Source: Diplonema papillatum
Lineage: Eukaryota > Euglenozoa > Diplonemea > Diplonemida > Diplonemidae
Assembly: GCA_030068145.1 (NCBI GenBank)
Contig: JAPJBO010000319.1
Span: 164,495 to 228,494, forward strand
Direction of reading: 5' to 3'
DNA length: 64,000 nucleotides
Position 1 is the first letter of the stretch. The number at the start of each line of letters is the position of its first letter. The position numbers and the translations under genes were made by a program. The notes beneath the pieces are model-generated. The model searched no databases and was not told where the DNA came from. It saw only the letters and a program-made list of their open reading frames with translations. This document shows positions 43,045 through 60,740 of this stretch, piece after piece.

Positions 43045-43317
43045 TTGTCCTGTGTACCTCATCCTCTTTCATGGTGGCAGCCCTATTCACAGGATGAAAG
43101 TATTGTACCATCGTCTCAAGTCTTCCGAGTACCCTCCGTTTACTGTTTTTCTTCTGGTGTGTTCTAACCTGCCTGTTTCGAACTTCCAGCAGTGCCCTTC
43201 TATTTTTAGCCACATACAATGTGTGAGGAAACTGAACCGTCCAAGTAGGAGCTTCTGATCGTGATCATTTGCCAAAAACCACGTCCAGGATTTGGGCTCA
43301 GGGTACTGCGGTAAACA
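43045..43317. other. 3' flank of the paralogue gene
   Basis: This is presumed 3' UTR and spacer up to the first repeat cassette. No motif is recognised. Confidence 0.4.
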
Positions 43318-44250
43318 CACCCGCAAACCCGCACTCGGTGGCCCTAGCGGGCCCCCTCGTGAATCCCGAACCTTTGAAAGAAGGCGGCCGTCTTGTCCAG
43401 GAAAGGGGGCCTCTCATCTATGGGAGGCCCGACTCGAGCAAGAAGAAGTTGAAACCATTCAAATTGAAACGACAAAAAAGGTAATAAAAACAACCGGAAG
43501 AACATGACACCAAAATAAAAGATGGCGGGGTGACGAGGTTCAATGCCGGTTGTTTTGGCGCCCACCGGAAACAATGAAGTATGCCTTTTTTTTTGCGATT
43601 AAGTGAACAAGTGCAGAGAGCGGTGCGCGTGCTCAATTTGATGATGGTTTTGACCGATGCATCTGAAGAAACCCTCACAGGAATTCGAAGTACAGACGAA
43701 CGACGTTCTTTCGAAGATCGGAACTTCTTCCCCATTTCGACATCAGGGGCACTCATCGCATTGTTGAGAGCTCCTTTGGCAAGGTGGCGCTGTGAACTGC
43801 AGGAAACTCTTCAAAGGGATCAAGAGTCACACAAAGGATATTCCTCATCATCCTCCGCTTCGAAGTCCAGACGATGGCTCATTGCTTGTTTTTGACATGA
43901 GGGACAAAAATCTGACCTGCACCTCCTCGTGGTGTTCCTCGGAAACGCGCTGCAAGCGCGGCCGACGCAGGCAGTCTTTGTTGTTTATCCAACTGTCTTT
44001 GCCTGATGATTGATCAGGATTCTTTGACAGGTTTGGACAGTTTCCTGTTCAGCCAAACAACACCATTCACGTGTCACGCTGTTCGTTAATTCTGGTGCCA
44101 ATCCTTGGCCATTGGCTGTCAACCTGGCACCGTTCTGCAGTCCTTCAAACAAAGGTGCTTTGGAGATTTGCAGTCGCTCTAGTACCGCTCTTTGGCGCGG
44201 TTCGCCGTCATTCAGGCGCGGCTCTTTGGGCATTTTTGGTCATTCTAGCA
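43318..44250 (+). repeat. Segmental repeat A, copy 1
   Basis: It begins with an ACCCGCACTCGGTGGCCCT motif and contains the core GACCGATGCATCTGAAGAAA, a ribozyme (43899-43974) and a stretch ending at the purine-rich array. It is nearly identical to 53438-54371, and over its first ~820 bases to 45400-46177. ORFs on both strands are shared by the copies only because the DNA is, with no sign of coding constraint. Confidence 0.85.
43899..43974 (+). ncRNA. HDV-like self-cleaving ribozyme, copy 1
   Basis: P1 GAGGGAC pairs with GTTCCTC (7 bp, one G-U). P2 CTGACCTGC pairs with GCAGGCAG (bulged A). P3 ACC/GGT closes loop TCCTCGT. GG follows P1 for P1.1, and P4 is CGCGC-TGCAA-GCGCG. J4/2 reads GCCGA, fitting the CNRA consensus with the catalytic C. 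Predicted cleavage is just 5' of G43899, after ACAT. All helices of the HDV-family double pseudoknot are present. Confidence 0.85.
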
Positions 44251-45058
44251 GCTCGAGCAGCAGCTAGAGGATAGAACAGCTAGAGGGGCAGCAGATAGAG
44301 GAGCAGAAGCAGGAGGAAGAGCTACAGCAAGAGGGAAGAAGGAAGATGAGCAGGAACAAGATGAGCAGCAGCTCGAGGAGCAGCAGCAAGAGGAAAGAAG
44401 CAAGATGAGCAGCAGCTAGAGGATAGAACAGCTAGAGGGGCAGCAGATAGAGGAGCAGAAGCAGGAGGAAGAGCTGCAGCAAAAAGAGAGAAAGAAGTAA
44501 GATGAGCAGCAGCTAGAGGATAGAACAGCTAGAGGGGCAGCAGATAGAGGAGCAGAAGCAGGAGGAAGAGCTACAGCAAGAGGGAAGAAGGAAGATGAGC
44601 AGCAGCTAGAGGATAGAACAGCTAGAGGGGCAGCAGATAGAGGAGCAGAAGCAGGAGGAAGAGCTACAGCAAGAGGGAAGAAGGAAGATGAGCAGCAGCT
44701 AGAGGATAGAACAGCTAGAGGGACAGCAGATAGAGGAGCAGAAGCAGGAGGAAGAGCTACAGCAAGAGAGAAGAAGGAAGATGGGCAGGAGCAAGATGAG
44801 CAGCAGCTCGAGGAGCCGCAAAGAGGGAAGAAGCAAGATGAGTAGCAGCTAGAGGAGCCGCAAAGAGGGACGAAGCAAGATGAGTGCAGCTGGAGGAGCA
44901 ACAGCTAGAGGGGCAGCAGCAGCTGCATCAACAGGGGAATAAGCAAGATGAGCATCAGCTAGGAGGGGCAGCCAGGGTAACAGCTGGCAGCAGCAGGGGC
45001 AGCAGATAGAGAAGCAGAAGATGAGGGGGGAGCGTCAGCAGGAGTCAGGAAGCAGAAA
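44247..45058 (+). repeat. Purine-rich minisatellite B, copy 1
   Basis: Variants of a ~100-bp unit made of GAGGAGCAGCAGCTAGAGGA-like and GCAGATAGAGGAGCAGAAGC-like blocks. The 3' part (about 44865-45058) is shared almost exactly with copies 2 and 3. Long ORFs on the opposite strand (Leu/Ser/Cys-rich) come from the composition alone. Confidence 0.85.
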
Positions 45059-45080
45059 CAAACACATACCATTGCCCAAG

Positions 45081-45378
45081 CACCAACAGCACCAACAGCA
45101 CCAACAGCACCAACAGAACAGCACCAACAGCACCAACAGCACCAACAGCACCAACAGCACCAACAGCACCAACAGCACCAACAGCACCAACAGCACCAAC
45201 AGCACCAACAGCACCAACAGCACCAACAGCACCTACAGCAGCAACAGCACCAACAGCAGCAACAGCAGCAACAGCAGCAACAGCAGCAACAGCATCAACA
45301 GCATCAACAGCATCAACAGCATCAACAGCATCAACAGCATCAACAGCATCAACAGCATCAACAGCACCAACAGCAACC
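45081..45378 (+). repeat. CAACAGCAN nonamer array C, copy 1
   Basis: Tandem CAACAGCAN 9-mers arranged in blocks (mainly N=C, then G, then T). A 134-codon frame begins at 45021 in a leader conserved in all three arrays (M-R-G-E-R-Q-Q-E). It reads HQQ, then shifts to NST/NSI repeats after a short indel. The frame loss argues against a maintained protein. Confidence 0.85.
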
Positions 45379-45399
45379 GCACCAACCCGCAAACCCCCC

Positions 45400-46177
45400 C
45401 GCAAACCCGCACTCGGTGGCCCTAGCGGGCCCCCTCGTGAATCCCGAACCTTTGAAAGAAGGCGGCCGTCTTGTCCAGGAAAGGGGGCCTCTCATCTATG
45501 GGAGGCCCGACTCGAGCAAGAAGAAGTTGAAACCATTCAAATTGAAACGACAAAAAAGGTAATAAAAACAACCGGAAGAACATGACACCAAAATAAAAGA
45601 TGGCGGGGTGACGAGGTTCAATGCCGGTTGTTTTGGCGCCCACCGGAAACAATGAAGTATGCCATTTTTTTTGCGATTAAGTGAACAAGTGCAGAGAGCG
45701 GTGCGCGTGCTCAATTTGATGATGGTTTTGACCGATGCATCTGAAGAAACCCTCACAGGAATTCGAAGTACAGACGAACGACGTTCTTTCGAAGATCGGA
45801 ACTTCTTCCCCATTTCGACATCAGGGGCACTCATCGCATTGTTGAGAGCTCCTTTGGCAAGGTGGCGCTGTGAACTGCAGGAAACTCTTCAAAGGGATCA
45901 AGAGTCACACAAAGGATATTCCTCATCATCCTCCGCTTCGAAGTCCAGACGATGGCTCATTGCTTGTTTTTGACATGAGGGACAAAAATCTGACCTGCAC
46001 CTCCTCGTGGTGTTCCTCGGAAACGCGCTGCAAGCGCGGCCGACGCAGGCAGTCTTTGTTGTTTATCCAACTGTCTTTGCCTGATGATTGATCAGGATTC
46101 TTTGACAGGTTTGGACAGTTTCCTGTTCAGCCAAACGATACCATTCACGTGTCACGCTGTTCGTTAATTCTGGTGCC
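45400..46177 (+). repeat. Segmental repeat A, copy 2
   Basis: Nearly identical to 43318-44100, starting with the same CCCGCACTCGG motif and carrying a ribozyme at 45977-46052. After 46177 it passes into the minisatellite at 46178-47630 instead of the purine array. Confidence 0.85.
45977..46052 (+). ncRNA. HDV-like self-cleaving ribozyme, copy 2
   Basis: Identical to the copy at 43899-43974 in all helices and core positions (P1 GAGGGAC/GTTCCTC, P4 CGCGC/GCGCG, J4/2 GCCGA). It lies in a segmental duplicate of the same flanks and is therefore not independent evidence. Confidence 0.85.
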
Positions 46178-47630
46178 GCTTGCTGGTCATTCATTGGCTG
46201 TCATTCTTGGAACGATCTCTGGCGATTGGCAGTCGTTCTGGTGCCAATCCTTGGCCATTGGCTGTCAATCTGGCACCGTTCTGCAGTCATTTGCCGTCCT
46301 TCAAACAAAGGTGCTTTGGACATTTGCAGTCGCTCTAGTACCGCTCTTTGGCGGTTCGCTGTCATTCAGGCGCGGCTCTTTGGGCATTTGTGGTCATTCT
46401 AGCTCTGTTCTTTGGTCGTTGGCAGTCATTCTGGTGCCGCTTGCTGGTCATTGGCTGTCAGTCTGGCACCGTTCTGCGGTCATTTGCCGTCCCTCAAGCA
46501 AGGTGATTTAGACATTTGCAGTCGTTCTCGTACCACTCTGTGGCTGTTCACTGTCATTCTGGTGCCGCTCTTTGGTCATTGGCTGTCATTCCTGGGCGGT
46601 CTCCAGCCTGTTGCAGTCGTTCTCGCGCCGCAGTTTGGCCATTTTCAGTCATGCTGGCGCTGCTCTTGGGCAATTTGCAGTCGTTCAAGCGCCGTTCTTT
46701 GGACATTTGCAGTCGTTCTAGCGCCGCTCTTTGGCCGACCGCCGTCATTCAGGCTCTATGGGCATTTGTAGTCGTTCTGGCGCCGCTCCTTGGCCATTTG
46801 CTGGCATTCTGGCACAGTCGTTCTGGTACCGCTCTATGGCCGTTCACTGTCATTCTGGTACCGCTCGTTGGTCATTGGCTGTCCTTCCTGGGCGATCTCC
46901 GGCCAGTTGTAGTCGTTCTCGTTCCGCAGTTTGGCCATTGCAGTCGTTTCAGCGCCGCTCTTGGTCCGTCATTCAGGTGTGGCTCATGGGCATTTGTGGT
47001 CATTTTAGCGCCGTTCGTTGGTCATAGGCAGTCATTCTAGTGCCGCTTGCGGGTCATTGGCTGTCTTCATTGGCCATTGGCTGGCATTCTGGCACAGTCG
47101 TTCTGGTACCGCTCTATGGCCGTTCACTGTCATTCTGGTGCCGCTCTTTGGTCATTGGCTGTCCTTCCTGGGCGATCTCCGGCCAGTTGCAGTCGTTCTC
47201 GTTCCGTAGTTTGGCCATTGCAGTCGTTCTAGCGCCGCTCTTTTGCCCGTTCACTGTCATTCAGGCGTGGCTCATGGGCATTTGTGTAATTCTAACGCTG
47301 TTCATTGGTCAATGGCTGTCATTCTTGGGGCAATCCCTGGCGATCTGCAGTCGTTCTGGCGCCGCTCCTTGGACATTGGCTGTCATTCTGGCACCGTTCT
47401 GCGGTCATCTGCTGTCCTTGAAGGAAAAAAAGACAGGTGTTATGGACATTTGCAGTCGTTCTCGTACCGCACTTTGGCCGTTTGCTGTCATTCAGGCATG
47501 GCTCTTTGGACATTTGTGGTCTAGCTCCGTTCGTGCCGCTGTTTGATTAGCGGCCAATTTGCAGTCGTTCTTGTGCCGCTCTTTATCATTCAGACGCGAC
47601 TCTTGGGGAATTTGAGGTCTTGCTATCGAG
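46178..47630 (+). repeat. Degenerate ~35-bp minisatellite
   Basis: GCCGCTCTTTGG, TCATTGGCTGTCATTC and CAGTCGTTCT recur many times with variable spacing. Longer blocks recur too, for example GGGCGATCTCCGGCCAGTTG at about 46890 and 47171. The family also appears as a short stretch at 44097-44240 and 54220-54365. Overlapping ORFs in all frames are by-products. Confidence 0.75.
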
Positions 47631-47639
47631 CTGTAGCGT

Positions 47640-48964
47640 GATGAGCAGCAGACAGGAGGAGCAGCAGCTAGAAGATAAAACAGCTAGAGGGGCAGCAGAT
47701 AGAGGAGCAGAAGCAGGAGGAAGAGCTACAGCAAGAGGGAAGAAGGAAGACGAGCCAGAGCAAGATGAGCAGCAGCTCGAGGAGCAGCAGCAAGAGGAAA
47801 GAAGCAAGATGAGCAGCAGCTAGAGGCAAGAGAGGAGCAGCAGATGGAGCAGCAGAAGCAGAGGAAAAGCTACAGGAAGAGGGGAAGAAGGAAGATGAGC
47901 AGGAACAAGATGAGCAGCAGCTCGAGGAGCAGCAGCTCGAGGAGCAGCAGCAAGAGGAAAGAAGCAAGATGAGCAGCAGCTAGAGGATAGAACAGCTAGA
48001 GGGGCAGCAGATAGAGGAGCAGAAGCAGGAGGAAGAGCTACAGCAAGAGGGAAGAAGGAAGATGAGCAGGAGCAAGATGAGCAGCAGCTCGAGGAGCAGC
48101 AAAGAGGGAAGAAGCAAGATGAGTAGCAGCTAGAGGAGCAGCAGCTAGGATAAAACAGCTAGAGGGGCAACAGAAAGAGGAGCAGAAGCAGGAGGAAGAG
48201 CTGCAGCAAGAGAGAAAGAAGCAAGATGAGCAGCAGCTAGAGGATAGAACAGCTAGAGGGGCAGCAGATAGAGGAGCAGAAGCAGGAGGAAGAGCTACAG
48301 CAAGAGGGAAGAAGGAAGATGAGCAGCAGCTAGAGGATAGAACAGCTAGAGGGGTAGCAGATAGAGGAGCAGAAGCAGGAGGAAGAGCTACAGCAAGAGG
48401 GAAGAAGGAAGATGAGCAGGAGCAAGATGAGCAGCAGCTCGAGGAGCAGCAAAGAGGGAAGAAGCAAGATGAGTAGCAGCTAGAGGAGCAGCAGCTAGGA
48501 TAAATCAGCTAGAGGGGCAACAGAAAGAGGAGCAGAAGCAGGAGGAAGAGAGAAAGAAGCAAGATGAGCAGCAGCTAGAGGATAGAACAGCTAGAGGGGC
48601 GGCAGATAGAGGAGCAGAAGCAGGAGGAAGAGCTACAGCAAGAGGGAAGAAGGAAGATGAGCAGCAGCTCGAGGAGCAGCAGCAAGAAGGAAGCAAGATG
48701 AGCAACCACTGGAGGCAAGACAGGAGCAGCTAGAGGAGCAGCAGCTAGAGGAGCCGCAAAGAGGGACGAAGCAAGATGAGTGCAGCTGGAGGAGCAACAG
48801 CTAGAGGGGCAGCAGATAGAGGAGCAGCAGCAGCTGCATCAACAGGGGAATAAGCAAGATGAGCATCAGCTAGGAGGGGCAGCCAGGGTAACAGCTGGCA
48901 GCAGCAGGGGCAGCAGATAGAGAAGCAGAAGATGAGGGGGGAGCGTCAGCAGGAGTCAGGAAGC
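47640..48964 (+). repeat. Purine-rich minisatellite B, copy 2
   Basis: Same units as 44247-45058, longer (about 1.3 kb), ending in the same leader before a CAACAGCAN array. From about 48060 it is nearly identical to 54466-55384. Confidence 0.85.
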
Positions 48965-48991
48965 AGAAACAAACACATACCATTGCCCAAG

Positions 48992-49440
48992 CACCAACAG
49001 CACCAACAGCACCAACAGCACCAACAGCACCAACAGCACCAACAGCACCAACAGCACCAACAGCACCAACAGCACCAACAGCACCAACAGCACCAACAGC
49101 AGCAACAGCAGCAACAGCAGCAACAGCAGCAACAGCAGCAACAGCAGCAACAGCAGCAACAGCAGCAACAGCAGCAACAGCATCAACAGCATCAACAGCA
49201 TCAACAGCACCAACAGCACCAACAGCACCAACAGCACCAACAGCACCAACAGCACCAACAGCACCAACAGCACCAACAGCACCAACAGCATCAACAGCAC
49301 CAACAGCACCAACAGCACCTACAGCACCTACAGCAGCAGCAACAGCAGCAACAGCAGCAACAGCAGCAACAGCATCAACAGCATCAACAGCATCAACAGC
49401 ATCAACAGCATCAACAGCATCAACAGCATCAACAGCACCT
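48992..49440 (+). repeat. CAACAGCAN nonamer array C, copy 2
   Basis: Blocks run CAC, CAG, CAT, CAC, CAG, CAT. A 185-codon frame from 48932 with the shared leader reads HQQ/QQQ repeats throughout and ends after a short tail. The 3' flank (49441-49600) is shared with copy 3 but translates in a different frame, so a conserved protein is unlikely. Confidence 0.85.
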
Positions 49441-49608
49441 ACAACAAACAGTGGCAGAACGAAAGGAGTGTTGTTTGCATTGCACTTAGGATCCAGCTTG
49501 CTGCACAAGAAGTCAACAAAGAAATGCAAAGCAATAGATGAAGCAATGAATCGATGAAGCAATATATCGATGAAGCGATGCACAAAAGGGGGAAGCCACA
49601 AGAGTGCG

Positions 49609-49687
49609 GGGGGACAAAATCTGACTTGCCACCTCCTCGCGGTGTCCCCTGGAAACGTGTTTTTCGAAACGCGGCCAAGGCAAGCAG
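49609..49687 (+). ncRNA. HDV-like self-cleaving ribozyme, copy 3 (second subfamily)
   Basis: P1 GGGGGAC pairs with GTCCCCT (7 bp with a G-U at the cleavage end, as in HDV). P2 is CTGACTTGCC/GGCAAGCAG and P3 ACC/GGT with loop TCCTCGC. GG follows P1, P4 is CGTGTTT-TTCG-AAACGCG, and J4/2 is GCCAA. Relative to copies 1-2, P2 and P4 change on both strands while keeping pairing. The ~70 bases after it match those after the copy at 52198. Confidence 0.85.
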
Positions 49688-50427
49688 TACCTTTGCTGTG
49701 GGTGAAAGCCCCTTACTTCGTATCTGGCGTCCGAGCTGCGCACCTACCCTTCCCGGGCGTAAAAGATCCTGCCCCAAGCTGCCCAGCAGGAACGGGGGGG
49801 GCGGTGCAAAGAGGCACCTTCCAGGTGAGCCTTGCCAAGTTTGACTCCCTTGTGGCCCTCTCATCGTGAAGGCGGGGTAAAATCGGGATGGTTACCAATG
49901 TGCCCCCGGTTTTTTGAATTAGTTGGCCCCAGTCTGAGTGACAGGTGGCGGCTTGTGGCTGAGCCGCGGCCTTTCCAGGCCCTTAGCCGACTCTCCTTTC
50001 GTTTTTCTGAGTCCCCAGTGCCGTGGGGCAGGCGCCGGTTGCAGTGTGCAACTGGTGCGGGTTCAAACCGCGCCTGTCTGTGTTCGTGGTTGTGCCGTTT
50101 TTCGTTGTGAAGAAGTGAACCCGGAGAACCCACCAGGTCAGGCACCAGGTTTCTTGTCTGGCAAACTGTACGGCCTGGTGTTTAAAAAAAAATTAAGGCT
50201 GTCTGTGCGGTTGGCTGTGACAAGTCCACTCCTGCATTTCACAAAATTTGCAGCAGGAGGGACTGAGTCACACCAATCGAAAAGACACCGGAGAATACCC
50301 GAGTGTCGGCCCACAAACGAAGTATTTGAACTTCCCCTTTTGGAACTTGCTTGTCTTGCCCATTTTTCCCAGTTTGCCTCGAAGGCCCCTGTACGATTCT
50401 TCCAAAAAAAAAAAGGAATGTGAGTAC
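49688..50427. other. Non-coding repeat-derived DNA with a diverged family E copy
   Basis: 49960-50190 is a diverged relative of 50990-51425 (shared GGCGCCGGTT, GCGCCTGTC, GGTTGTGCC and CCAGGCACCAGGT blocks). A-runs occur near 50184 and 50403. No gene is supported. Confidence 0.55.
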
Positions 50428-50585
50428 AGTATGTCGAATTCTTCCTTTAATTTTTTAATTCCCAAATCGGGGGGCACTTGGACTGCCCCTGGATTCTTCA
50501 AAGCAGTACCTGTAAGTAAGTTTGAGAGTCGTTGGTGCGGTGCACAAAAACATTACAAACCTGTGCTGCAAACCCGACCAATCCT
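50428..50585 (+). repeat. Repeat segment H, copy 1
   Basis: TGTGAGTACAGTATGTCGAA through GCTGCAAACCCGACCAATCC matches 56256-56411 closely. Here it is followed directly by a ribozyme; at the other site by unrelated sequence. Confidence 0.8.
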
Positions 50586-50664
50586 GGGGGACAAAATCTG
50601 ACTTGCCACCTCCTCGCGGTGTCCCCTGGAAACGTGTTTTTCGAAACGCGGCCAAGGCAAGCAG
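50586..50664 (+). ncRNA. HDV-like self-cleaving ribozyme, copy 4 (second subfamily)
   Basis: Core identical to the copy at 49609-49687 (P1 GGGGGAC/GTCCCCT, P4 with TTCG tetraloop, J4/2 GCCAA). Upstream is segment H, which ends exactly at the predicted cleavage site. Downstream sequence differs from that of 49609. Confidence 0.85.
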
Positions 50665-50840
50665 TACCTCTCTGCTCCCTCGTGGGGCGGAAAGGTTGAA
50701 GATCGAAGGCTCGAAGGCAGAAGCGGCTTGACAAACCGTTTCCTCACCCGAAGGCTGGTTCTGCCCCCTTGTGGGGCGGAGAGGTTGAATATCGAAGGCT
50801 CGAAGGCAGAAGCGGCTTGACAAACCGTTTCCGTTTCCGG
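50665..50840 (+). repeat. Two-copy ~86-bp tandem repeat
   Basis: CTCGTGGGGCGGAAAGGTTG ... GGCTTGACAAACCGTTTCC occurs at about 50678-50745 and again, slightly changed, at about 50764-50833. Confidence 0.75.
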
Positions 50841-51059
50841 AAGGCTGGACTCCCCGGTGGGTCTTTCTTGCTGCGAAGGCGAGGTTGCTTTGGTGCTTGG
50901 CTTTTCTTGCGGGGCCAAAGTTGTGGAATTTCCTGTGTCTGTGCGAGAAAGGGTTGCTTGTGGCGAAGCGGCGGCCTTTCCAGGCTCCCAGCTGAACCCC
51001 CAGAAAGAAAAAAGAAGGGGTTCCCCAGTGCCGTGTGGCAGGCGCCGGTTCAATGTGAA

Positions 51060-51425
51060 CCGGTGCGGTCAAAAACTGCGCCTGTCAGTGGTGTGGTTGT
51101 GCCTTTTGCTGTTGTGATGAACCGAAAAGAACACGGAGAACACCGACCAGGCACCAGGTAGACGTCTGGAAACAGTACGGCGGTGCATTTTTATTCCCAG
51201 GAGACTTGCTCCCAAGAGACTTTCCTTCACTCCAAGCGCCGATTCACAAAATGACATGGCCGCTTGGTGAAGGAACTTCTCTTCGGGTGTAAGATCTTCC
51301 CCGCGGGTGGACGCGGAGGAAGAGGGTTCTTCTCGTATCCCACGAGAAAATTGAAAAGGAACTAGCCCAACACACCCCTAGCCCCATTTGTTTCCCGTAC
51401 GATGCTCCCAGTTGAAAAAAAAAAA
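51060..51425 (+). repeat. Poly(A)-ended repeat E, copy 1
   Basis: 366 bases nearly identical to 53012-53380, ending in an 11-A run. The A run at the shared 3' end, with different sequence beyond, suggests retroposition. Homology continues upstream to about 50990 in this copy only. Confidence 0.75.
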
Positions 51426-51809
51426 GGAGCAGCCTCCAACCGAAGCGGCGAGGGATCCACCACGGTGAGCTCCCCTAGCTGCGTGATCTTGGTCGACTCA
51501 CCCAGCAAGGGGGGGGCAGGCGGGGTGAGCAGCCCCGTCTCCCCAGCGATCCTGGTGGGACCCTATTGAATTTTTTTTTTTTGAGTTTTATAAAAATTTT
51601 CGACGAAGGTGAATTTTAAACAAGGAAAATCTTACTGTGACGGACGGACGGGTTTTGAAGCCACAAATATTTATAGTAACCCGCACTCGGTGGCCCTCGT
51701 GCATTTGATGGATTCTTAGTGCTTCGATGTGGGCCTTCTTGTCCAGGTTCGGCCTCTTGTGTGAAGAGGCCGACTCGAAAGAAACAGGATTCAGCACACA
51801 CAACGCAAA
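51426..51809. other. Repeat-junction region
   Basis: Contains GGGACCCTATTGAATTTTT through ATTTTCGAC, shared with 56453-56500, and a CCCGCACTCGGTGGCCCT motif at about 51680. The AT-rich part (51566-51680) resembles the 214-bp unit at 61281 in layout: T-run, AAGGTGAA, a GTGACxxACGGAC stretch, then TTATAGTAAC. No gene. Confidence 0.5.
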
Positions 51810-52177
51810 CAGGAACTAGAAGAAGAAAAGAAATTCACAAGATGGTTCGGGTCGGAGTTGTGCTTGAAAAATCTGGTGTTCGAGAGTTCGTGTGGAAGCA
51901 GTCAAGGTATGTGAAGTTCCGAGTCAGCGAAAAGGTTCTGACAGAGCTATGGGTACATATTTTTGTTGATATTTTGACCGATGCATCCAACGAAACCGTC
52001 ACAGGAATTCGAAGCTCCTACGAACGACGTTCTTTCAAGGGTCGCAACTTCGGGAGAACGTGCCCCCCCATTTCGACATGCAACAGTTGCCTATCACGTT
52101 TTCGGTGTTCCTTCAGCAAAGTGCTCCTGAGAGGTCGTGAAGTCCAAGAAGCTGGCCATCAAAGGCCCCGGAATTCT
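51810..52177 (+). repeat. Repeat F, copy 1
   Basis: 368 bases, 98% or more like 52634-53002 by eye. It contains the core GACCGATGCATCCAACGAAA ... GGTCGCAACTTCGGG that recurs in segmental repeat A and in the 59-60 kb units. A frame from 51719 spans it (peptide L-T-D-A-S-N-E-T-V-T-G-I-R-S-S). Copy 2 has a one-base insertion that shifts the frame. Confidence 0.75.
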
Positions 52178-52197
52178 CAATAGGTGGTCTTGGGGTT

Positions 52198-52264
52198 GAG
52201 GGACAAAATCTGACTTGCCACCTCCTCGCGGTGTCCCCTGGAAACGTGCGGCCAAGGCAAGCAG
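52198..52264 (+). ncRNA. Defective HDV-like ribozyme, copy 5 (P4 deleted)
   Basis: Second-subfamily sequence with P2, P3, L3 TCCTCGC and J4/2 GCCAA intact, but 12 bases of the P4 hairpin are missing (GGAAACGTGCGGCCAAGG). P1 has an A-C mismatch at its second pair. It is probably inactive. The next ~70 bases match those after 49687. Confidence 0.75.
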
Positions 52265-52354
52265 TTCCTTTGCTGTGGGTGAAAGCCCCTAACTTCGTAT
52301 CTGGCCTCCGAGCTGTGCACCTACTCTTCCCAGGCGTAAAAAAGGTCGGCAAGA

Positions 52355-52632
52355 AAGCAGCAGCAGCAGCAAGGCAGCAGCAGCAAGGCAGCAGCAGCAA
52401 GGCAGGCAGCAGTAGACGCAAGGCAGCAGCAGCAAGGCAGCCACGGCAAGGCAGCCGTGGCAAGGCAGCAACGGCAATGCAGCAGCAGAAGCAAGACAGC
52501 AGCGGCAAGGCAGCAGCAGCAAGGCAAGACAGCAGCGGCAAGGCAGGAGCGGCAGCAGGACAGCAGCAGCAAGGCAGCAGCAGCAAGGCAGCAGCGGCAA
52601 GGCAGCAGCAGCAAGGCAGCCAGAGCAAGACA
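52355..52632 (+). repeat. GCAGCAGCAAGGCA-type array
   Basis: Irregular tandem GCAGCAGCAAG/GCAGCGGCAAG units between the defective ribozyme's downstream piece and repeat F copy 2. ORFs through it (Ala/Ser/Lys/Arg/Gln-rich) are composition-driven. Confidence 0.8.
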
Positions 52633-52633
52633 G

Positions 52634-53002
52634 CAGGAACTAGAAGAAGAAAAGAAATTCACAAGATGGTTCGGGTCGGAGTTGTGCTTGAAAAATCTGG
52701 TGTTCGAGAGTTCGTGTGGAAGCAGTCAAGGTATGTGAAGTTCCGAGTCAGCGAAAAGGTTCTGACAGAGCTATGGGTACATATTTTCGTTGATATTTTG
52801 ACCGATGCATCCAACGAAACCGTCACAGGAATTCGAAGCTCCTACGAACGACGTTCTTTCAAGGGTCGCAACTTCGGGAGAACGTGCCCCCCCCATTTCG
52901 ACATGCAACAGTTGCCTATCACGTTTTCGGTGTTCCTTCAGCAAAGTGCTCCTGAGAGGTCGTGAAGTCCAAGAAGCTGGCCATCAAAGGCCCCGGAATT
53001 CT
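52634..53002 (+). repeat. Repeat F, copy 2
   Basis: Near-identical to 51810-52177 with one extra C in the C-run near 52890. It is followed by repeat E copy 2, not by a ribozyme. Confidence 0.8.
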
Positions 53003-53011
53003 GCAAACAAC

Positions 53012-53380
53012 CGGTGCGGTCAAAAACTGCGCCTGTCAGTGGTGTGGTTGTGCCTTTTGCTGTTGTGTTGAACCGAAAAAAACACGGAGAACACCGACCA
53101 GGCACCAGGTAGACGTCTGGAAACAGTACGGCGGTGCATTTTTATTCCCAGGAGACTTGCTCCCAAGAGACTTTCCTTCACTCCAAGCGCCGATTCGCAA
53201 AATGACATGGCCGCTTGGTGAAGGAACTTCTCTTCGGGTGTAAGATCTTCCCCGCGGGTGGACGCGGAGGAAGAGGGTTCTTCTCGTATCCCACGAGAAA
53301 ATTGAAAAGGAACTAGCCCAACACACCCCTAGCCCCATTTGTTTCCCGTACGATGCTCCCAGTTGAAAAAAAAAAAAAAA
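53012..53380 (+). repeat. Poly(A)-ended repeat E, copy 2
   Basis: Same as 51060-51425 but with a 15-A run at the end. It is followed by GACACACAGGACTCC, a short string also found near 61071. Confidence 0.75.
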
Positions 53381-53437
53381 GACACACAGGACTCCAAAAA
53401 AAAAAACAAGCCCGAAAACCCGCAAACCCGCCCGCAA

Positions 53438-54371
53438 ACCCGCAAACCCGCACTCGGTGGCCCTAGCGGGCCCCCTCGTGAATCCCGAACCTTTGAAAGA
53501 AGGCGGCCGTCTTGTCCAGGAAAGGGGGCCTCTCATCTATGGGAGGCCCGACTCGAGCAAGAAGAAGTTGAAACCATTCAAATTGAAACGACAAAAAAGG
53601 TAATAAAAACAACTGGAAGAACATGACACCAAAATAAAAGATGGCGGGATGACGAGGTTCAATGACAGTTGTTTTGGCGCCCACCGGAAACAATGAAGTA
53701 TGCCATTTTTTTTTGCGATTAAGTGAACAGGTGCAGATAGCGGTGTGTGTGCTCAATTTGATGATGGTTTTGACCGATGCATCTGAAGAAACCCTCACAG
53801 GAATTCGAAGTTCAGACGAACGACGTTCTTTCGAAGATCGGAACTTCCCCCCCATTTCGACATCAGGAGAGCGGGTACTCATCGCATTGTTGAGAGCTCC
53901 TTTGGCAAGGTGGCCCTGTGAACTGCAGAAAACTCTTCAAAGGGATCAAGAGTCACACAAAGGATATTCCTCATCATCCTCCGCTTCTAAGTCCAGACGA
54001 TGGCTCATTGCTTGTTTGACATGAGGGACAAAAATCTGACCTGCACCTCCTGGTGGTGTTCCTCGGAAACGCGCTGCAAGCGCGGCAGACGCAGGCAGTC
54101 TTTGTTGTTTATCCAACTGTCTTTGCCTGATGATTGATCAGGATTCTTTGACAGGTTTGGACAGTTTCCTGTTCAGCCAAACAACACCATTCACGTGTCA
54201 CGCTGTTCGTTAATTCTGGTGCCAATCCTTGGCCATTGGCTGTCAACCTGGCACCGTTCTGCAGTCCTTCAAACAAAGGTGCTTTGGAGATTTGCAGTCG
54301 CTCTAGTACCGCTCTTTGGCGCGGTTCGCCGTCATTCAGGCGCGGCTCTTTGGGCATTTTTGGTCATTCTA
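53438..54371 (+). repeat. Segmental repeat A, copy 3
   Basis: Closely matches 43318-44250 over its full length, with scattered substitutions and a short insertion after the TTTCGACATCAGG block. It carries a ribozyme at 54023-54098 and leads into the purine array as copy 1 does. Confidence 0.85.
54023..54098 (+). ncRNA. HDV-like self-cleaving ribozyme, copy 6
   Basis: First-subfamily copy in segmental repeat A copy 3. P1, P2, P3 and P4 are as at 43899. L3 is TCCTGGT (one change) and J4/2 is GCAGA, which still fits CNRA. Confidence 0.8.
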
Positions 54372-55384
54372 GCAGCTCGAGCAGCAGCTAGAGGATAGAA
54401 CAGCTAGAGGGGCAGCAGATAGAGGAGCAGAAGCAGGAGGAAGAGCTACAGCAAGAGGGAAGAAGGAAGATGAGCAGGAGCAAGAAGAGCAGCAGCTCGA
54501 GGAGCAGCAAAGAGGGAAGAAGCAAGATGAGTAGCAGCTAGAGGAGCAGCAGCTAGGATAAAACAGCTAGAGGGGCAACAGAAAGAGGAGCAGAAGCAGG
54601 AGGAAGAGCTGCAGCAAGAGAGAAAGAAGCAAGATGAGCAGCAGCTAGAGGATAGAACAGCTAGAGGGGCAGCAGATAGAGGAGCAGAAGCAGGAGGAAG
54701 AGCTACAGCAAGAGGGAAGAAGGAAGATGAGCAGCAGCTAGAGGATAGAACAGCTAGAGGGGCAGCAGATAGAGGAGCAGAAGCAGGAGGAAGAGCTACA
54801 GCAAGAGGGAAGAAGGAAGATGAGCAGGAGCAAGATGAGCAGCAGCTCGAGGAGCAGCAAAGAGGGAAGAAGCAAGATGAGTAGCAGCTAGAGGAGCAGC
54901 AGCTAGGATAAAACAGCTAGAGGGGCAACAGAAAGAGGAGCAGAAGCAGGAGGAAGAGCTGCAGCAAGAGAGAAAGAAGCAAGATGAGCAGCAGCTAGAG
55001 GATAGAACAGCTAGAGGGGCGGCAGATAGAGGAGCAGAAGCAGGAGGAAGAGCTACAGCAAGAGGGAAGAAGGAAGATGAGCAGCAGCTCGAGGAGCAGC
55101 AGCAAGAAGGAAGCAAGATGAGCAACCACTGGAGGCAAGACAGGAGCAGCTAGAGGAGCAGCAGCTAGAGGAGCCGCAAAGAGGGACGAAGCAAGATGAG
55201 TGCAGCTGGAGGAGCAACAGCTAGAGGGGCAGCAGATAGAGGAGCAGCAGCAGCTGCATCAACAGGGGAATAAGCAAGATGAGCATCAGCTAGGAGGGGC
55301 AGCCAGGGTAACAGCTGGCAGCAGCAGGGGCAGCAGATAGAGAAGCAGAAGATGAGGGGGGAGCGTCAGCAGGAGTCAGGAAGC
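54371..55384 (+). repeat. Purine-rich minisatellite B, copy 3
   Basis: Same family as 44247 and 47640. The last ~900 bases are nearly identical to 48060-48964. Confidence 0.85.
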
Positions 55385-55411
55385 AGAAACAAACACATAC
55401 CATTGCCCAAG

Positions 55412-56104
55412 CACCAACAGCACCAACAGCACCAACAGCACCAACAGCACCAACAGCACCAACAGCACCAACAGCACCAACAGCACCAACAGCACCAACA
55501 GCACCAACAGCACCAACAGCACCAACAGCACCAACAGCACCAACAGCACCAACAGCACCAACAGCACCAACAGCACCAACAGCACCTACAGCACCTACAG
55601 CACCTACAGCAGCAACAGCAGCAACAGCAGCAACAGCAGCAACAGCATCAACAGCATCAACAGCATCAACAGCATCAACAGCATCAACAGCATCAACAGC
55701 ATCAACAGCACCAACAGCACCAACAGCACCAACAGCACCAACAGCACCAACAGCACCAACAGCACCAACAGCACCAACAGCACCTACAGCACCTACAGCA
55801 CCTACAGCAGCAACAGCAGCAACAGCAGCAACAGCAGCAACAGCATCAACAGCATCAACAGCATCAACAGCATCAACAGCATCAACAGCAGCACCAACAG
55901 CACCAACAGCACCAACAGCACCAACAGCACCAACAGCACCAACAGCACCAACAGCACCTACAGCACCTACAGCACCTACAGCAGCAACAGCAGCAACAGC
56001 AGCAACAGCATCAACAGCATCAACAGCATCAACAGCATCAACAGCATCAACAGCATCAACAGCATCAACAGCATCAACAGCATCAACAGCATCAACAGCA
56101 TCAA
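55412..56104 (+). repeat. CAACAGCAN nonamer array C, copy 3
   Basis: The longest of the three. The block order CAC, CTA-containing spacer, CAG, CAT repeats about three times as a higher-order unit. A 290-codon His/Gln frame from 55352 with the shared leader runs through it to 56224. It is the only copy with an uninterrupted frame into the flank, and I do not regard it as a proven gene. Confidence 0.85.
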
Positions 56105-56255
56105 CCTACAACAAACAGTGGCAGAACAAAAGGTGTGTTGTTTGCATTGCACTTAGGGTCCAGCTTGCTGCACAAGAAGTCAACAAAGAAACGCAAAGCA
56201 ATAGATGAAGCAATGAATCGATGAAGCGATGCGCAAAAGGGGGAAGCCACAAGAG

Positions 56256-56411
56256 TGTGAGTACAGTATGTCGAATTCTTCCTTTAATTTTTTAATTCCC
56301 AAATCGGGGGGCACTTGGACTGCCCCTGGATTCTTCAAAGCAGTACCTGTAAGTGAGGTGGTGCTGTGCACAAAAACGTTACAAACCTGTGCTGCAAACC
56401 CGACCAATCCT
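56256..56411 (+). repeat. Repeat segment H, copy 2
   Basis: Matches 50428-50585, but the 3' boundary is followed by GACACCTGGACTG instead of a ribozyme. Confidence 0.8.
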
Positions 56412-56699
56412 GACACCTGGACTGTTATAGGCTATTTCACGGATTTCTGTAGGGGACCCTATTGAATTTTTTTTTTTGAGTTTTATAAAAATTTTCGACC
56501 CGCAAACCCGCACTCGGTTGCCCTGCGGGCCCCCTCGTGTATTGGATTGATTCTCAGTGTGTTTCAGCCTTCCTTCTAGAAACAGCCTCTTTGTGAAGAG
56601 GCCGACTCGAAAGAGAGCGAAAAACGCAACAAAAACAGGAAAATTTAGTACCAAAAAAGTACGTGCGCTCGGCTAAGGCCGGCGCGTGGCGAGACTGGA
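56412..56699. other. Repeat-junction region before the 16-bp satellite
   Basis: Contains the GGGACCCTATTGAATTTTT block shared with 51557 and a CCCGCACTCGGTTGCCCTGC motif. No gene. Confidence 0.5.
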
Positions 56700-57736
56700 G
56701 GCAGCAGTTAAAGTTCGGGGAACAGCAAAGTTCGGGCGAAGCTAAGTTCGGGCAATGCTAAGTTCTGGTGAAGCAAAGTTCGGGTGAAGCTAAGTTCGGG
56801 CGAAACAAAGTTCGGGCGAAGCAAAGTTCGGGCGAAGCTAAGTTCGGGTGAGCAAAGTTCTGGTGAAGCAAAGTTCGGGCGAAGGTGAAGCTAAGTTCGG
56901 GCGAAACAAAGTCCGGGCGAAGCTAAGTTCTGGGTGAAGCAAAGTTCGGACGTTCTGGTGAAGCTAAGATCGGGCGAAACAAAGTTCGGCGAAGCTAAGT
57001 TCGGGTGAAGCAAAGTTCGGGCGAAGCTAAGTTCGGGTGAAGCAAAGTTCTGGTGAAGCTAAGTTCGGGCGAAACAAAGTTCGGGCGAAGCAAAGTTCTG
57101 GGCGAAGCTAAGTTCGGATGAAGCAAAGTTCTGGTGAAGCAAAGTTCGGGCGAAACAAAGTTCTGGGGGAAGCAAAGTTCGGGCGAAGCAAAGTTCGGGC
57201 GAAGCTAAGTTCTGGTGAAGCAAAGTTCGGGCGAAGCAAAGTTCGGGTCAAGCTAAGTTCGGGCGAAACAAAGTGCGGGCGAAGCTAAGTTCTGGGGAAG
57301 CAAAGTTCGGATGAAGCAAAGTTCTGGTGAAGCAAAGTTCGGGCGAAACAAAGTTCTGGGGGAAGCAAAGTTCGGGCGAAGCAAAGTTCGGGCGAAGCTA
57401 AGTTCTGGGTGAAGCAAAGTTCGGGCGAAGCTAAGTTCGGGTCAAGCAAAGTTCGGGCGAAGCAAAGTTCGGGCGAAGCAAAGTTCGGGGGGAAGCAAAG
57501 TTCGGGTGAAGCTAAGTTCGGGCGAAGCAAAGTTCTGGTGAAGCAAAGTTCGGGCGAAGCAAAGTTCGGGTCAAGCTAAGTTCGGGCGAAACAAAGTCCG
57601 GGCGAAGCTAAGTTCTGGGGGAAGCAAAGTTCGGGTGAAGCAAAGTTCTGGTGTAGCTAAGATCGGGCGAAACTAAGTTCGGGTGAAGCTAAGTTCGGGT
57701 TCTGTGAAGCTAAGTTCGGGTGAAGCAAAGTTCTGG
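56700..57736. repeat. 16-bp satellite, block 1
   Basis: About 60 tandem variants of GAAGCAAAGTTCGGGC. Common variants are CAAAG/CTAAG and TTCGGGC/TTCTGGT/TTCGGGT. The 16-bp period is not a multiple of three, so ORFs across it are by-products. Confidence 0.9.
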
Positions 57737-57947
57737 TGAACATTGCATGTTCATAGGACCTCCAGTCTCGAAAAATTCTCAAAAACTTCAAACCGAAAAA
57801 AACACTTCGCGCGGGGATCGAACCGCGGACCTGTGGGTCCGGAGACCGTCGCACTGTTGAAGTGGACCATACAGGCATGAAATCCGAAAAACGGAAAAAG
57901 CCAGCTCCGCGCTATTATCTAGTTCAAAAACAGTACATTTTTAAAAG
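57737..57947 (-). mobile_element. tRNA-like/SINE-like insert, copy 1
   Basis: A 211-bp unit interrupts the satellite and recurs at 58689-58893. On the minus strand its centre (57876 to 57803) carries GGTTCGATCCC, a match to the Pol III B box/T-arm. A run of seven T follows (57802-57796), the usual Pol III terminator. The 5' and 3' ends of the tRNA-like body do not form a 7-bp acceptor stem. It is therefore not a functional tRNA but could be a tRNA-derived SINE or decayed tRNA. Confidence 0.5.
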
Positions 57948-58688
57948 CGGGGAACAGCAAAGTTCGGGCGAAGCGAAGTTCGGGCAATGCTAAGTTCTGG
58001 TGAAGCAAAGTTCGGGTGAAGCTAAGTTCGGGCGAAGCAAAGTTCGGGCGAAACAAAGTCCGGGCGAAGCTAAGTTCTGGGTGAAGCAAAGTTCGGACGT
58101 TCTGGTGAAGCTAAGATCGGGCGAAAAAGTTCGGCGAAGCTAAGTTCGGGTGAAGCAAAGTTCGGGCGAAGCTAAGTTCTGGTGAAGCAAAGTTCGGGCG
58201 AAGCAAAGTTCGGGTCAAGCTAAGTTCGGGCGAAACAAAGTGCGGGCGAAGCTAAGTTCTGGGGGAAGCGAAGTTCGGATGAAGCAAAGTTCTGGTGAAG
58301 CAAAGTTCTGGTGAAGCAAAGTTCGGGCGAAGCAAAGTTCGGGTCAAGCTAAGTTCGGGCGAAACAAAGTCCGGGCGAAGCTAAGTTCTGGGGGAAGCAA
58401 AGTTCGGGTGAAGCAAAGTTCTGGTGAAGCTAAGATCGGGCGAAACAAAGTTCGGGCGAAGCTAAGTTCGGGTGAAGCTAAGTTCGGGTGAAGCAAAGTT
58501 CTGGTGAAGCAAAGTTCGGGCGAAGCAAAGTTCGGGTCAAGCTAAGTTCGGGCGAAACAAAGTCCGGGCGAAGCTAAGTTCTGGGGGAAGCAAAGTTCGG
58601 GTGAAGCATGAAGCTAAGATCGGGCGAAACAAAGTTCGGGCGAAGCTAAGTTCGGGTGAAGCTAAGTTCGGGTGAAGCAAAGTTCTGG
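57948..58688. repeat. 16-bp satellite, block 2
   Basis: About 45 copies of the same GAAGCAAAGTTCGGGC family. Longer stretches match block 1, for example GTTCGGACGTTCTGGTGAAG, so the satellite-plus-insert forms a higher-order repeat of roughly 950 bp. Confidence 0.9.
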
Positions 58689-58893
58689 TGAACATTGCAT
58701 GTTCATAGGACTCCAGTCTCGAAAAATTCTCAAAAATTTCAAACCGAAAAAAACACTTCGCGCGGGGATCGAACCGCGGACCTGTGGGTCCGGAGACCGT
58801 CGCACTGTTGAAGTGGACCATACAGGCATGAAATCCGAAAAACGAAAAAAGCCAGCTCCGCGCTATTATCTAGTACAAAACAGTACAGTAAGT
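58689..58893 (-). mobile_element. tRNA-like/SINE-like insert, copy 2
   Basis: Nearly identical to copy 1, with B-box GGTTCGATCCC on the minus strand inside 58754-58827 and the T7 run at 58753-58747. A fragment of the same unit (CATTGCATGTTCATAGGACC) follows at 58926-58967. Confidence 0.5.
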
Positions 58894-59240
58894 AAAAGTG
58901 GGGTTGGCTCGAATAGAGGCTATTCACATTGCATGTTCATAGGACCTCCAGTCTCGAACAAGTTCACAATGTATAGCGACAATGTCGGACGAATTTGGTG
59001 ATCCGAAAAGCTGGTCTTTGAAGTTTCGCGCGAAACCAACCAAGGTATGCCTCATCGAAGAGGTTCTGGGAGAGCTATGGGTACCCGTTTTCTCGAATTT
59101 TTGACCAATTCATCCAAAGAAACCCTCACAGGAATTCGTAGCTCATACGAACAGTGTTCTTTCGCCGGTCGGAACTTCGGAAGTACAAGCCCCCCCCCTT
59201 TTGAAAGGGAGAAGGTCTCTTATCATGCGTTTCTTTACAT

Positions 59241-59316
59241 GAGGGACAAGAATCTGACCTGCACCTCCTCGTGGTGTCCCTCGGAAACGTGCTGAACGCG
59301 CGGCCGACGCAGGCAG
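59241..59316 (+). ncRNA. HDV-like self-cleaving ribozyme, copy 7
   Basis: P1 GAGGGAC/GTCCCTC has seven Watson-Crick pairs. P2 is CTGACCTGC/GCAGGCAG, P3 ACC/GGT with loop TCCTCGT, then GG. P4 is CGTGC-TGAAC-GCGCG, with base changes relative to copies 1-2 that keep pairing. J4/2 is GCCGA. This is the best-formed copy by eye. Confidence 0.87.
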
Positions 59317-60536
59317 TCTTTGATATTGTTTCCCCAGTTGGTTGGTCAACAATGACCGTGTGTTTGGTTGATTGGAAAAGCTCTTCTTGCGGAAACCGTC
59401 AAAGCATGCGGATTTGCGAGTCATTGAAGAGGTTTTGGGAGAGCTATGGGTACCCGTTTTCTTCCGTTTTTGACCGATTCATCCAAAGAAGCCCTCACAG
59501 GAATTCGAAGCTCAGACAAACGTCATTCTTTGAAGGGTCGGAACTTCGGGGAACAAGCCCCCCCGAATTCGACATCAGGAGAAGGTCGCGTGTTGCCGTT
59601 TTTGACGTTCCTCGAACAAGATGGCCCTTAAAGTCCAGGAAGTGAAGAAGACTGGCCTCCGGAGGCCCAGGGGTTATCAATGAGTGGTTCTGCGGGTCTC
59701 GTGTGGAAACAATCTGGGTATGCGGATTTGCGAGTCATTGAAGAAGTTGTGAGAAAGCTATGGGTACCCGTTTTCTTCCATTTTAGACCGATGCATCCAA
59801 AGAAGCCCTCACAGGAATTCTTAGCTCAGACAAACGTCATTCTTTTAAGGTCGGAACTTCGGGGAATTCGACATCAGGAGAAGGTCGCGGATTGCCGTTT
59901 TTGACGTTCCTTGAACAAGATGGCCCCTAAAGACCAGGAAGTGAAGAAGACTGGCCTCCGGAGGCCCAGGGGTTATTGATGAGTGGTTCTGCGGGTCTCG
60001 TGTGGAAACAATCAGCGTCATGCGGATTTTCTAGTCATTGAAGAGGTTGTGAGAGAGCTATGGGTACCCATTTTCTTCCATTTTTGACCGATTCATCCAA
60101 AGAAGCCCTCACAGGAATTCGAAGCTCAGACGAACGATGTTCTTTCGAGGGTCGGAACTTCGGGGAAGAAGCCCCTCCGAATTCAAGAACAGGAGAAAGT
60201 CGCGTATTGCCGTTTTTGGCGTTCCTTGAACAAGATGGCCCCTAAAGACCAGGAAGTGAAGAAGACTGGCCTCCGGGGCCAAGGGTTATTGATGAGTGGT
60301 TCTGCGGGTCTCGTGTGGAAACTATCTGGGTATGTGGAGTTGTGAGTCATTGAAGAGGTTATGAGAGAGCTATGGGTACCCGTTTTCTTCCATTTCGGAC
60401 CGATGCATCCAAAGAAACCCCCACAGGAATTCGATGCTCATGCGAACAGTGTTATTTCGATGGTCAGAACTTCGGAAGTACAAGCCCCCCTTTTTGAAAG
60501 CGAGAAGGTCTCATATCTCGTGTTTCCTTACTACAT

Positions 60537-60612
60537 GAGGGACAAGAATCTGACCTGCACCTCCTCGTGGTGTCCCTCGGAAACATGCTCAACGCGCTGC
60601 CGATGCAGGCAG
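60537..60612 (+). ncRNA. HDV-like ribozyme, copy 8 (weakened P4)
   Basis: P1 GAGGGAC/GTCCCTC, L3 TCCTCGT and J4/2 CCGA are intact. P2 gains an A-T pair (CTGACCTGCA with TGCAGGCAG). P4 (CATGC-TCAAC-GCGCT) keeps only about three pairs, so activity may be reduced. Confidence 0.8.
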
Positions 60613-60740
60613 TCTTAGATGTTGTTTCCCCAATTGGTTGGTCAACAATGACCGTGTGTTTGGTTGATTGGAAAAGCTCGTCTTGCTTTGGGCGTTCCTC
60701 ACAACCGGCCGAAAAAACTTTGTCTCACAACATTGTATGT

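Follow-up and report, generated by a model that had tools for sequence, protein, structure and literature searches.

HDV-like ribozymes at the heads of short putative retroelements and within duplicated repeats of Diplonema papillatum

Eight plus-strand motifs, set in a repeat mosaic within a 64-kb stretch of Diplonema papillatum DNA (contig JAPJBO010000319.1; the whole stretch is referred to as the window, and coordinates are counted within it), raise the question of whether they are HDV-like self-cleaving ribozymes and what such ribozymes would do there. Diplonemids are abundant marine flagellates. No report of HDV-like ribozymes in diplonemids was found among the titles and abstracts of open-licence papers, and the word 'ribozyme' is absent from the main text of the D. 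papillatum genome paper. In the accessible parts of two diplonemid papers (PMC12621601, PMC12699882), the mentions of ribozymes are unrelated. The copies described here would place HDV-like ribozymes in diplonemids, and in large number.

The initial annotation had assigned the eight copies their 5' ends and a double-pseudoknot order, and the Rfam model RF02682 (HDV-F-prausnitzii), scanned over 17.4 kb, matches 8/8 sites and starts at exactly the claimed coordinate in each case. The covariance-model check proposed at that time returned HDV-class matches at all eight sites, but every score is below the gathering threshold: RF02682 reaches at best 33.6 bits against 44 (E 0.0052 to 8.4), RF01787 (drz-agam-1), which matches 3/8 sites, reaches 28.9 bits at 49609 against 37, and RF00094 (HDV_ribozyme), aligned across the entire 50586 copy scanned alone, reaches 21.1 bits against 50 (E 0.24). 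A model match at 62872 (16.7 bits, E 0.26) was set aside as weak; this region recurs in L014 and L053. As judged from model matches and predicted fold, the eight sites are confirmed as HDV-like ribozyme copies, and the earlier interpretation is supported, with self-cleavage presumed. The predicted ribozymes, the elements and units that hold them, and the helices of the 50586 copy are as follows.

43899..43975, plus strand: type-A1 ribozyme, well formed (RF02682 33.6 bits; model R1 97.5 bits)
45977..46053, plus strand: type-A1 ribozyme, identical in sequence to 43899, inside a duplicated unit (RF02682 33.6 bits)
43313-44099 and 45391-46177: duplicated unit holding the 43899 and 45977 copies (99.4% identity)
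49609..49688, plus strand: type-B ribozyme forming the first bases of SINE1, at the element boundary (RF02682 32.6 bits, RF01787 28.9 bits)
49609..50414, plus strand: SINE1, putative non-autonomous retroelement with ribozyme head and poly(A) end
50586..50665, plus strand: type-B ribozyme forming the first bases of SINE2 (RF02682 32.6 bits; three Rfam HDV-class models in one register)
50586..51425, plus strand: SINE2, putatively non-autonomous, with ribozyme head and poly(A) end; body 61% like SINE1
52198..52265, plus strand: type-B1 ribozyme, damaged, inside a repeat unit (RF02682 21.4 bits)
54023..54099, plus strand: type-A1 ribozyme with L3 change, in a unit duplicated from that of 43899 (RF02682 28.6 bits)
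59241..59317, plus strand: type-A2 ribozyme, well formed (RF02682 30.9 bits; model R1 100.6 bits)
60537..60613, plus strand: type-A3 ribozyme, two P4 pairs broken (RF02682 19.8 bits)
56239..56412, plus strand: host-repeat relative without SINE1 or SINE2, for empty-site comparison
50586-50592/50621-50627, plus strand: P1 of the 50586 copy
50602-50607/50656-50661, plus strand: P2 of the 50586 copy
50608-50610/50618-50620, plus strand: P3 of the 50586 copy, with L3 at 50611-50617
50612-50613/50628-50629, plus strand: P1.1 of the 50586 copy
50633-50639/50644-50650, plus strand: P4 of the 50586 copy, with J4/2 CCAA at 50652-50655

The fold follows the nested double-pseudoknot order P1, P2, P3, P1.1, P4, with 24 pairs in five helices and a 7-bp P1 that starts with G (GGGGGAC or GAGGGAC). 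HDV-class ribozymes carry a catalytic C in a J4/2 of CNRA form, and the L3 loop belongs to the catalytic core of the class. The CNRA form claimed for J4/2 is seen as CCAA, CCGA or CAGA, and the claimed L3, TCCTCG(T/C), fails at 54023, where C is changed to G in L3 and J4/2 is CAGA. The match of L3 to that of HDV itself fits the Rfam alignment; since L3 is part of the core of the class, this likeness is no evidence for descent from the virus. Five of the eight copies are well formed, but a 12-nt deletion at 52198 has removed the P4 hairpin, alongside an A-C mismatch in P1, and the 60537 copy has two broken P4 pairs; both are probably dead copies.

The two subfamilies and their register agree with Rfam models made independently of the window and with copies from across the genome. 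In an alignment of 18 of 30 distinct sequences, for which intact rows were chosen, 98.0% of 400 pair cells hold standard pairs, compared with 32.0-52.9% once the pairing is slid. The paired changes between subfamilies are real but few: both-sided changes occur in P1, P2 and P4, at 3/24 pairs in total, a level of three covarying pairs that shuffles reach in 139/500 cases, and the further pair types number 10, below the shuffled mean of 12.0. Plain folding, a method that cannot form the pseudoknot, gave energies no better than those of shuffled sequences (z 0.25, -0.98, -1.02, 0.01). The copies occupy at least four separate contexts, as had been proposed, namely 49609, 50586, 52198 (in a B1 unit) and the type-A unit.

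Two of these contexts, 49609 and 50586, point to mobile elements. The ribozyme forms a 5' module common to two SINE families with diverged bodies: the ribozyme regions of SINE1 and SINE2 share 84/84 bases, and their bodies 389/641 (61%). Among 23 SINE1/SINE2 copies in fetched DNA, 21 different 5' flanks are present, the ribozymes are intact and near-identical, and the element starts exactly at the first G of the ribozyme, the expected cleavage position, in 20. Of the 17 copies with an available 3' end, nearly all finish in poly(A), and two have a divergent 3' end. With a length of ~800-940 bp, which leaves no room for a reverse transcriptase gene, SINE1 and SINE2 are, to judge from their DNA, non-autonomous and without a reverse transcriptase of their own. 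The flanks of SINE1 match the SINE-free relative at 56239 in 54/60 positions on the 5' side and 99/100 on the 3' side, and the 5' flank of SINE2 recurs without the element at 56392, where the 3' flank differs. Target-site duplications, where they exist at all, measure 2-5 bp; a script found 3-4 nt candidates in 5/17 copies, and candidates of 2-3 bp are present at the two sites that have an empty relative. Many predicted ribozyme copies in the D. papillatum genome are the heads of short mobile elements. An autonomous element carrying this ribozyme was looked for and none was found. One candidate long partner, L020, was rejected, as it consists of a ~160-nt SINE1 head followed by part of another retroelement; among 40 scored matches to that other part, 27 further ones are good (26 at 97-99%, one partial at 99%) and the others are weaker.

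We consider it probable that an HDV-class self-cleaving ribozyme forms the 5' end of the poly(A)-ended non-autonomous retroelements SINE1 and SINE2, with older copies in the duplicated A and B1 units, and that cleavage frees the element RNA from a longer transcript before retrotransposition. The element would be transcribed inside a longer, probably read-through RNA, in which the ribozyme would fold and cut just 5' of its first G to give the element RNA an exact 5' end; a putative non-LTR reverse transcriptase would then start at the poly(A) end of this RNA and copy it into a new site. We infer cleavage, read-through transcription, target-primed reverse transcription and the partner enzyme, and the role in releasing the element at its 5' end is likely by analogy with R2 and trypanosomatid elements.

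One alternative, chance resemblance or a low-complexity repeat artefact, might be suspected in a region rich in tandem repeats, where a loose home-made descriptor gives 28 plus-strand and 18 minus-strand matches in 64 kb; it recovers 7/8 claimed sites (52198 is missed), but proves nothing by itself because it also fires at 21 other plus-strand and 18 minus-strand positions. Chance is nevertheless untenable given the counts: the exact P3-L3-P3' core CACCTCCTCGYGGTG occurs 741+773 = 1,514 times in the genome and its backwards pattern 3+1 = 4 times, the 40-nt type-B pattern with at most one mismatch occurs 374+355 = 729 times and backwards 0+0 times, and a scan of the entire 64 kb against 4227 Rfam families gives no match at E<=0.1 outside the eight ribozyme sites, five of which reach that level. 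The ribozyme pattern gave 0 matches in a viral collection and 0 in a GTDB collection. That the copies are catalytically dead remnants spread by repeat duplication alone would suit the two of eight window copies that look broken and the many that lie inside duplicated units, but is very improbable in view of the varied flanks and intact, near-identical ribozymes of SINE1 and SINE2.

The duplicated units also bear on host use, in which the ribozymes would either divide terminal-array RNAs unit by unit or shorten polycistronic transcripts in their 3' parts, retroelements having merely delivered them. The six window copies other than 49609 and 50586 all sit in duplicated repeat units and, genome-wide, ~750 type-A cores (754) and the B1 copies, 16/17 of which have one common 5' flank, are found in such units and not as fresh insertions. 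When A1 and A2 units are compared, conservation centres on the ribozyme (73/78 positions alike, against 15/27 and 15/32 in the adjoining flanks). This conservation peak is seen in sequence comparisons of A1 with A2 and A3, and not between A2 and A3, because the flanks of the latter agree as well (22/30 and 29/32). The arrays also face outward and, wherever the direction of nearby genes could be assigned, run the same way as those genes. Copies in duplicated units, however, multiply without selection, and several are broken in P4, P1 or 3' parts, and we regard host use as improbable. With two sites heading retroelements and the other six placed in duplicated units, the repeat mosaic of the window is, by its sequence, a retroelement landscape.

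Among known systems, HDV-like ribozymes of R2, R4, L1 and RTE elements are described as cleaving at the 5' junction (PMC3774820, as far as accessible), and the available part of PMC4035085 places the HDV-like ribozyme L1TcRz in the Pr77 region of trypanosomatid L1Tc/ingi, NARTc, RIME and SIDER elements. The trypanosomatid elements, L1Tc/ingi and its short forms, share with those of D. papillatum a host that belongs to the Euglenozoa and transcribes its genes polycistronically, short non-autonomous members with a 5' HDV-like ribozyme, a poly(A) tail (PMC12278014, accessible portion) and the use of one 5' module across several families. In contrast, no long partner was found in D. papillatum, target-site duplications are few and very short, and the elements face outward near contig ends, whereas those of trypanosomatids are concentrated where the coding strand switches, according to the accessible text of PMC4748587. 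R2 and R2 SIDEs also have an HDV-like ribozyme at the element 5' junction, and R2 shares with SINE1/SINE2 5' junctions at which bases have been added or lost and, additionally, has short internally deleted forms (accessible parts of PMC3774820 and PMC3414825). However, R2 resides in 28S rRNA genes, the insertion site that serves as criterion for the R2 clade, and the poly(A)-ended SINE1/SINE2 copies have their many different 5' flanks instead. The mosquito ribozyme drz-agam-1 aligns with type B over its full length, with ACAAAAUC in J1/2 and ACCUCCUCG.GGUGUC in common; it differs in P4 and scores below gathering, and the likeness need not mean kinship. RF02682 and RF00094 resemble the window copies in L3 and in the register of P1, P3, P4 and J4/2, but come from bacterial and viral settings, unlike the retroelements of D. 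papillatum.

More than 1,000 ribozyme-like motif copies lie in repeats near contig ends, and 90/91 near-end copies of one family, among 100 copies listed, face outward from their contigs. A subtelomeric location of these repeats is presumed. In a telomere test (TTAGGG)4 had 0 occurrences; (TTTGCGGG)n is abundant (2587+1705), but was rejected as the telomere repeat, as it lies on the minus strand at the right end of C22, opposite to a G-rich telomere end. One speculative and rather doubtful extension is that insertion or survival of ribozyme-headed elements is almost confined to the direction of transcription, at sites that lie near chromosome ends and downstream of unidirectional gene clusters, so that the ribozyme exploits polycistronic read-through. 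In this view the older types A and B1 became fixed in terminal repeats, and hundreds of ribozymes would divide the long RNAs of these repeats into units. Through the near one-way orientation, a connection of ribozyme-led elements with polycistronic transcription becomes testable. As further observations, ARAGORN detected no tRNA genes in the window, and a spliced-leader pattern gave 634 matches.

Retroelements led by HDV-like ribozymes, known elsewhere, are now found in a diplonemid, a well-founded finding that extends the known class of such elements and in which self-cleavage is predicted. The initial annotation had proposed eight HDV-like copies on the + strand of 43899-60612, and each is matched by the Rfam model HDV-F-prausnitzii (RF02682) from exactly the claimed start. 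They are of type A1 at 43899, 45977 and 54023, A2 at 59241, A3 at 60537, B at 49609 and 50586, and B1 at 52198. The parts of the 50586 copy, and those of type A that are compared with it, are as follows.

50586, + strand, helix P1: GGGGGAC/GTCCCCT
50586, + strand, helix P2: CTTGCC/GGCAAG
50586, + strand, helix P3: ACC/GGT, enclosing TCCTCGC
50586, + strand, helix P1.1: CC/GG
50586, + strand, helix P4: CGTGTTT/AAACGCG
50586, + strand, joining strand J4/2: CCAA
Type A copies, + strand, helix P2: CCTGC/GCAGG
Type A1 copies, + strand, helix P4: CGCGC/GCGCG

All eight sites were matched in a scan of 43600-61000 thresholded on E-value instead of gathering score, but none reached the latter (HDV-F-prausnitzii, by position: 33.6, 33.6, 32.6, 32.6, 21.4, 28.6, 30.9 and 19.8 bits; gathering 44), and the window holds no Rfam match at gathering score. 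In the same scan drz-agam-1 (RF01787) matches three of the sites: 49609, 50586 and 52198, the last with its match starting at 52200. When 50586 is scanned alone, HDV-F-prausnitzii and drz-agam-1 give E 6.8e-5 and 2.2e-4, respectively, and HDV_ribozyme (RF00094) aligns along its length (21.1 bits, E 0.24). With all 4227 families and the whole window, matches at E<=0.1 comprise five of the eight sites and nothing else. Plain thermodynamic folding, a method that cannot form the pseudoknot, is not better for four copies than for shuffles (z 0.25, -0.98, -1.02 and 0.01), but it recovers P1 and P4 for 50586 and 59241.

The covariation is small but real. Eighteen rows were aligned from 30 distinct pattern-found sequences in fetched DNA and the window, leaving out two unrelated pattern matches, nine copies with truncations, rearrangements or other alterations, and a B row identical over the ribozyme. 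Standard pairs fill 98.0% of 400 cells, a value inflated by picking mostly intact rows and in which the deleted P4 of 52198 still scores as three pairs though without a hairpin loop, compared with 32.0-52.9% with partners slid. The paired changes that the initial annotation had described between subfamilies are real but few: both sides change in three pairs, 2-42 in P1, 19-76 in P2 and 53-62 in P4; P3, P1.1 and four of the five P2 pairs are invariant and hence uninformative for or against pairing. In 139/500 shuffles at least as many pairs change on both sides, and the alignment has fewer further pair types than shuffled data (10 versus 12.0); all 500 shuffles stay below the observed count of doubly changed cells and below the observed covariation score.

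Related sequences are abundant in the genome searched (271.4 Mb, 2,910 contigs). Exact CACCTCCTCGYGGTG occurs 741+773 times (backwards control 3+1), a type-B 40-mer with at most one mismatch 374+355 times (backwards 0+0), the SINE1 head with at most one mismatch, which thereby includes B1, 344+352 times, the SINE2 head 39+33 times and the type-A core 347+407 times (backwards 0 for each of these three). A model built from the 18 aligned rows, which match by construction, detects 66 copies across 46 sources at E<1e-6, including all eight window sites, and three further weak matches (E 0.26). A 29-nt stretch of the diplonemid spliced leader is found 335+299 times with at most two mismatches (backwards control 0). 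The Diplonema papillatum genome paper (PMC10161547) reports 52% repeats and about 2,500 retroelement-type gene models, and the word 'ribozyme' is absent from its main text.

SINE1 (49609..50414) and SINE2 (50586..51425) are the ribozyme-headed elements of the window. Type-B copies in the window and in fetched stretches L009-L050 number 43, comprising 15 SINE1, 8 SINE2, 17 B1 and three that fit none of these classes (a B1-like copy, a rearranged one and one cut short by a CAAACCCG array). Among the 23 SINE1/SINE2 copies the 12-nt 5' flank takes 21 different forms (in one copy only 4 nt is available), and 20 start with intact GGGGGA. With 3' ends available for 17 of the 23, SINE1 measures ~795 nt and ends in GATTCTTCC-poly(A), two copies having other ends, and SINE2 measures about 760-920 nt and ends in CCCAGTTGA-poly(A). 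The filled target at 49609, ...CCACAAGAGTG-CG-[SINE1]-GGAA-TGTGAGTACAG, has a SINE1-free relative at 56239, ...CCACAAGAGTG/TGAGTACAG (flank identity 54/60 on the 5' side and 99/100 on the 3' side). A second filled/empty pair consists of the fetched stretch L032 and the repeat at 51830 in the window, and SINE2 at 50586 has an element-free counterpart, at 56392, for its 5' side only. At the two paired sites the target-site duplication spans 2-3 bp, and a scripted search gave candidates of 3-4 nt in 5/17 copies.

In R2 (Drosophila), R4, L1 and RTE elements, HDV-like ribozymes located at the 5' end cut at the 5' junction of the element (PMC3774820), and active ones are present in trypanosomatid L1Tc/NARTc/SIDER elements (PMC4035085). 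Since the expected cleavage site is the element's 5' end across many unrelated flanks, the ribozymes of SINE1 and SINE2 are likely to have the same role and would cleave at the 5' junction, as predicted by analogy. An RT gene in the fetched stretch L020 (PF00078, 44.8 bits) lacks any tie to the SINEs. A retroelement-like coding region lies in L053, L054 and window 62800-63720, and also in L014 and others; near it, in L052-L054, is sequence resembling, by eye, a ubiquitin-specific protease.

The first 84 nt are identical between SINE1 and SINE2, and their bodies agree at 389/641 aligned positions (shuffled 40-46%). Because the identity extends to unpaired positions, exchange of a 5' module, e.g. 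by template switching, is likelier than selection alone. L020, where a SINE1 head of ~160 nt is joined to part of another retroelement and a run of A, is an example of such a joint. The type A and B1 ribozymes sit in duplicated units, with the flank GTGGTCTTGGGGTT common to 16/17 B1 copies. Identity between A1 and A2 units is 73/78 over the ribozyme, 15/27 just upstream and 15/32 just downstream; between A1 and A3 units it is 69/78, with 15/30 and 14/32 in the adjoining flanks; A2 and A3 are similar throughout (74/78; flanks 22/30 and 29/32). Between A1 and A2/A3 the ribozyme is therefore the conserved part, through selection or renewed insertion.

Both SINE bodies retain a GC-rich hairpin region (50030-50090 in SINE1, 51040-51095 in SINE2), which in SINE1 includes GGTTCAAACC, a sequence resembling a pol III B box and altered in SINE2. 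The 8-bp repeat TTTGCGGG has 2587+1705 genome matches to four units, in thousands of places (e.g. C22:625487-625678, on one contig); one such array hosts a SINE2 insertion (L050, seen in the upstream flank), and in L019 a ribozyme copy leads into such an array. The window also carries a 214-bp unit in 4.3 near-identical copies (99%; 61276-62197) and a 16-bp repeat, AAAGTTCGGGCGAAGC, in >100 degenerate copies (56710-58685).

The most surprising part of the finding is orientation. Among the first 100 of 1,514 core (P3-L3-P3' pattern) places, the distance to a contig end is at most 60 kb for 88, of which 83 point outward; 8 of the remaining 12 point toward the nearer end, and 20/23 contig ends are uniform in ribozyme direction. 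SINE1 heads number 696 when one mismatch is allowed; of the 100 exact ones listed, 49 fall in the first 60 kb (48 '-', 1 '+'), 42 are no more than 60 kb from the right end and are all '+', and the other 9 are located elsewhere. In both counts the lengths of unfetched contigs are bounded or interpolated. The orientation is relative to contig ends, not established chromosome ends: (TTAGGG)4 has 0 matches in the genome, and repeat arrays also break assemblies. Coding strands were assigned by codon-usage score in 1.8-kb samples from 12 contigs. By a cut-off chosen after the scores were seen (best score >=15, difference >=5), the strand is clear in 7/12 contigs, and 7/7 agree with ribozyme direction; among the other five, two agree (one a tie) and three disagree. 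The genome has unidirectional gene clusters, likely co-transcribed, and spliced-leader trans-splicing (PMC10161547). The two longest ORFs of the window are on the + strand, upstream of the ribozymes. The very long ORFs at 25-28002 and 39220-43044 (+) encode Cys-rich products of 9,325 and 1,274 aa, the latter matching extensin-like and EGF-like Pfam families and containing a 60-bp tandem repeat.
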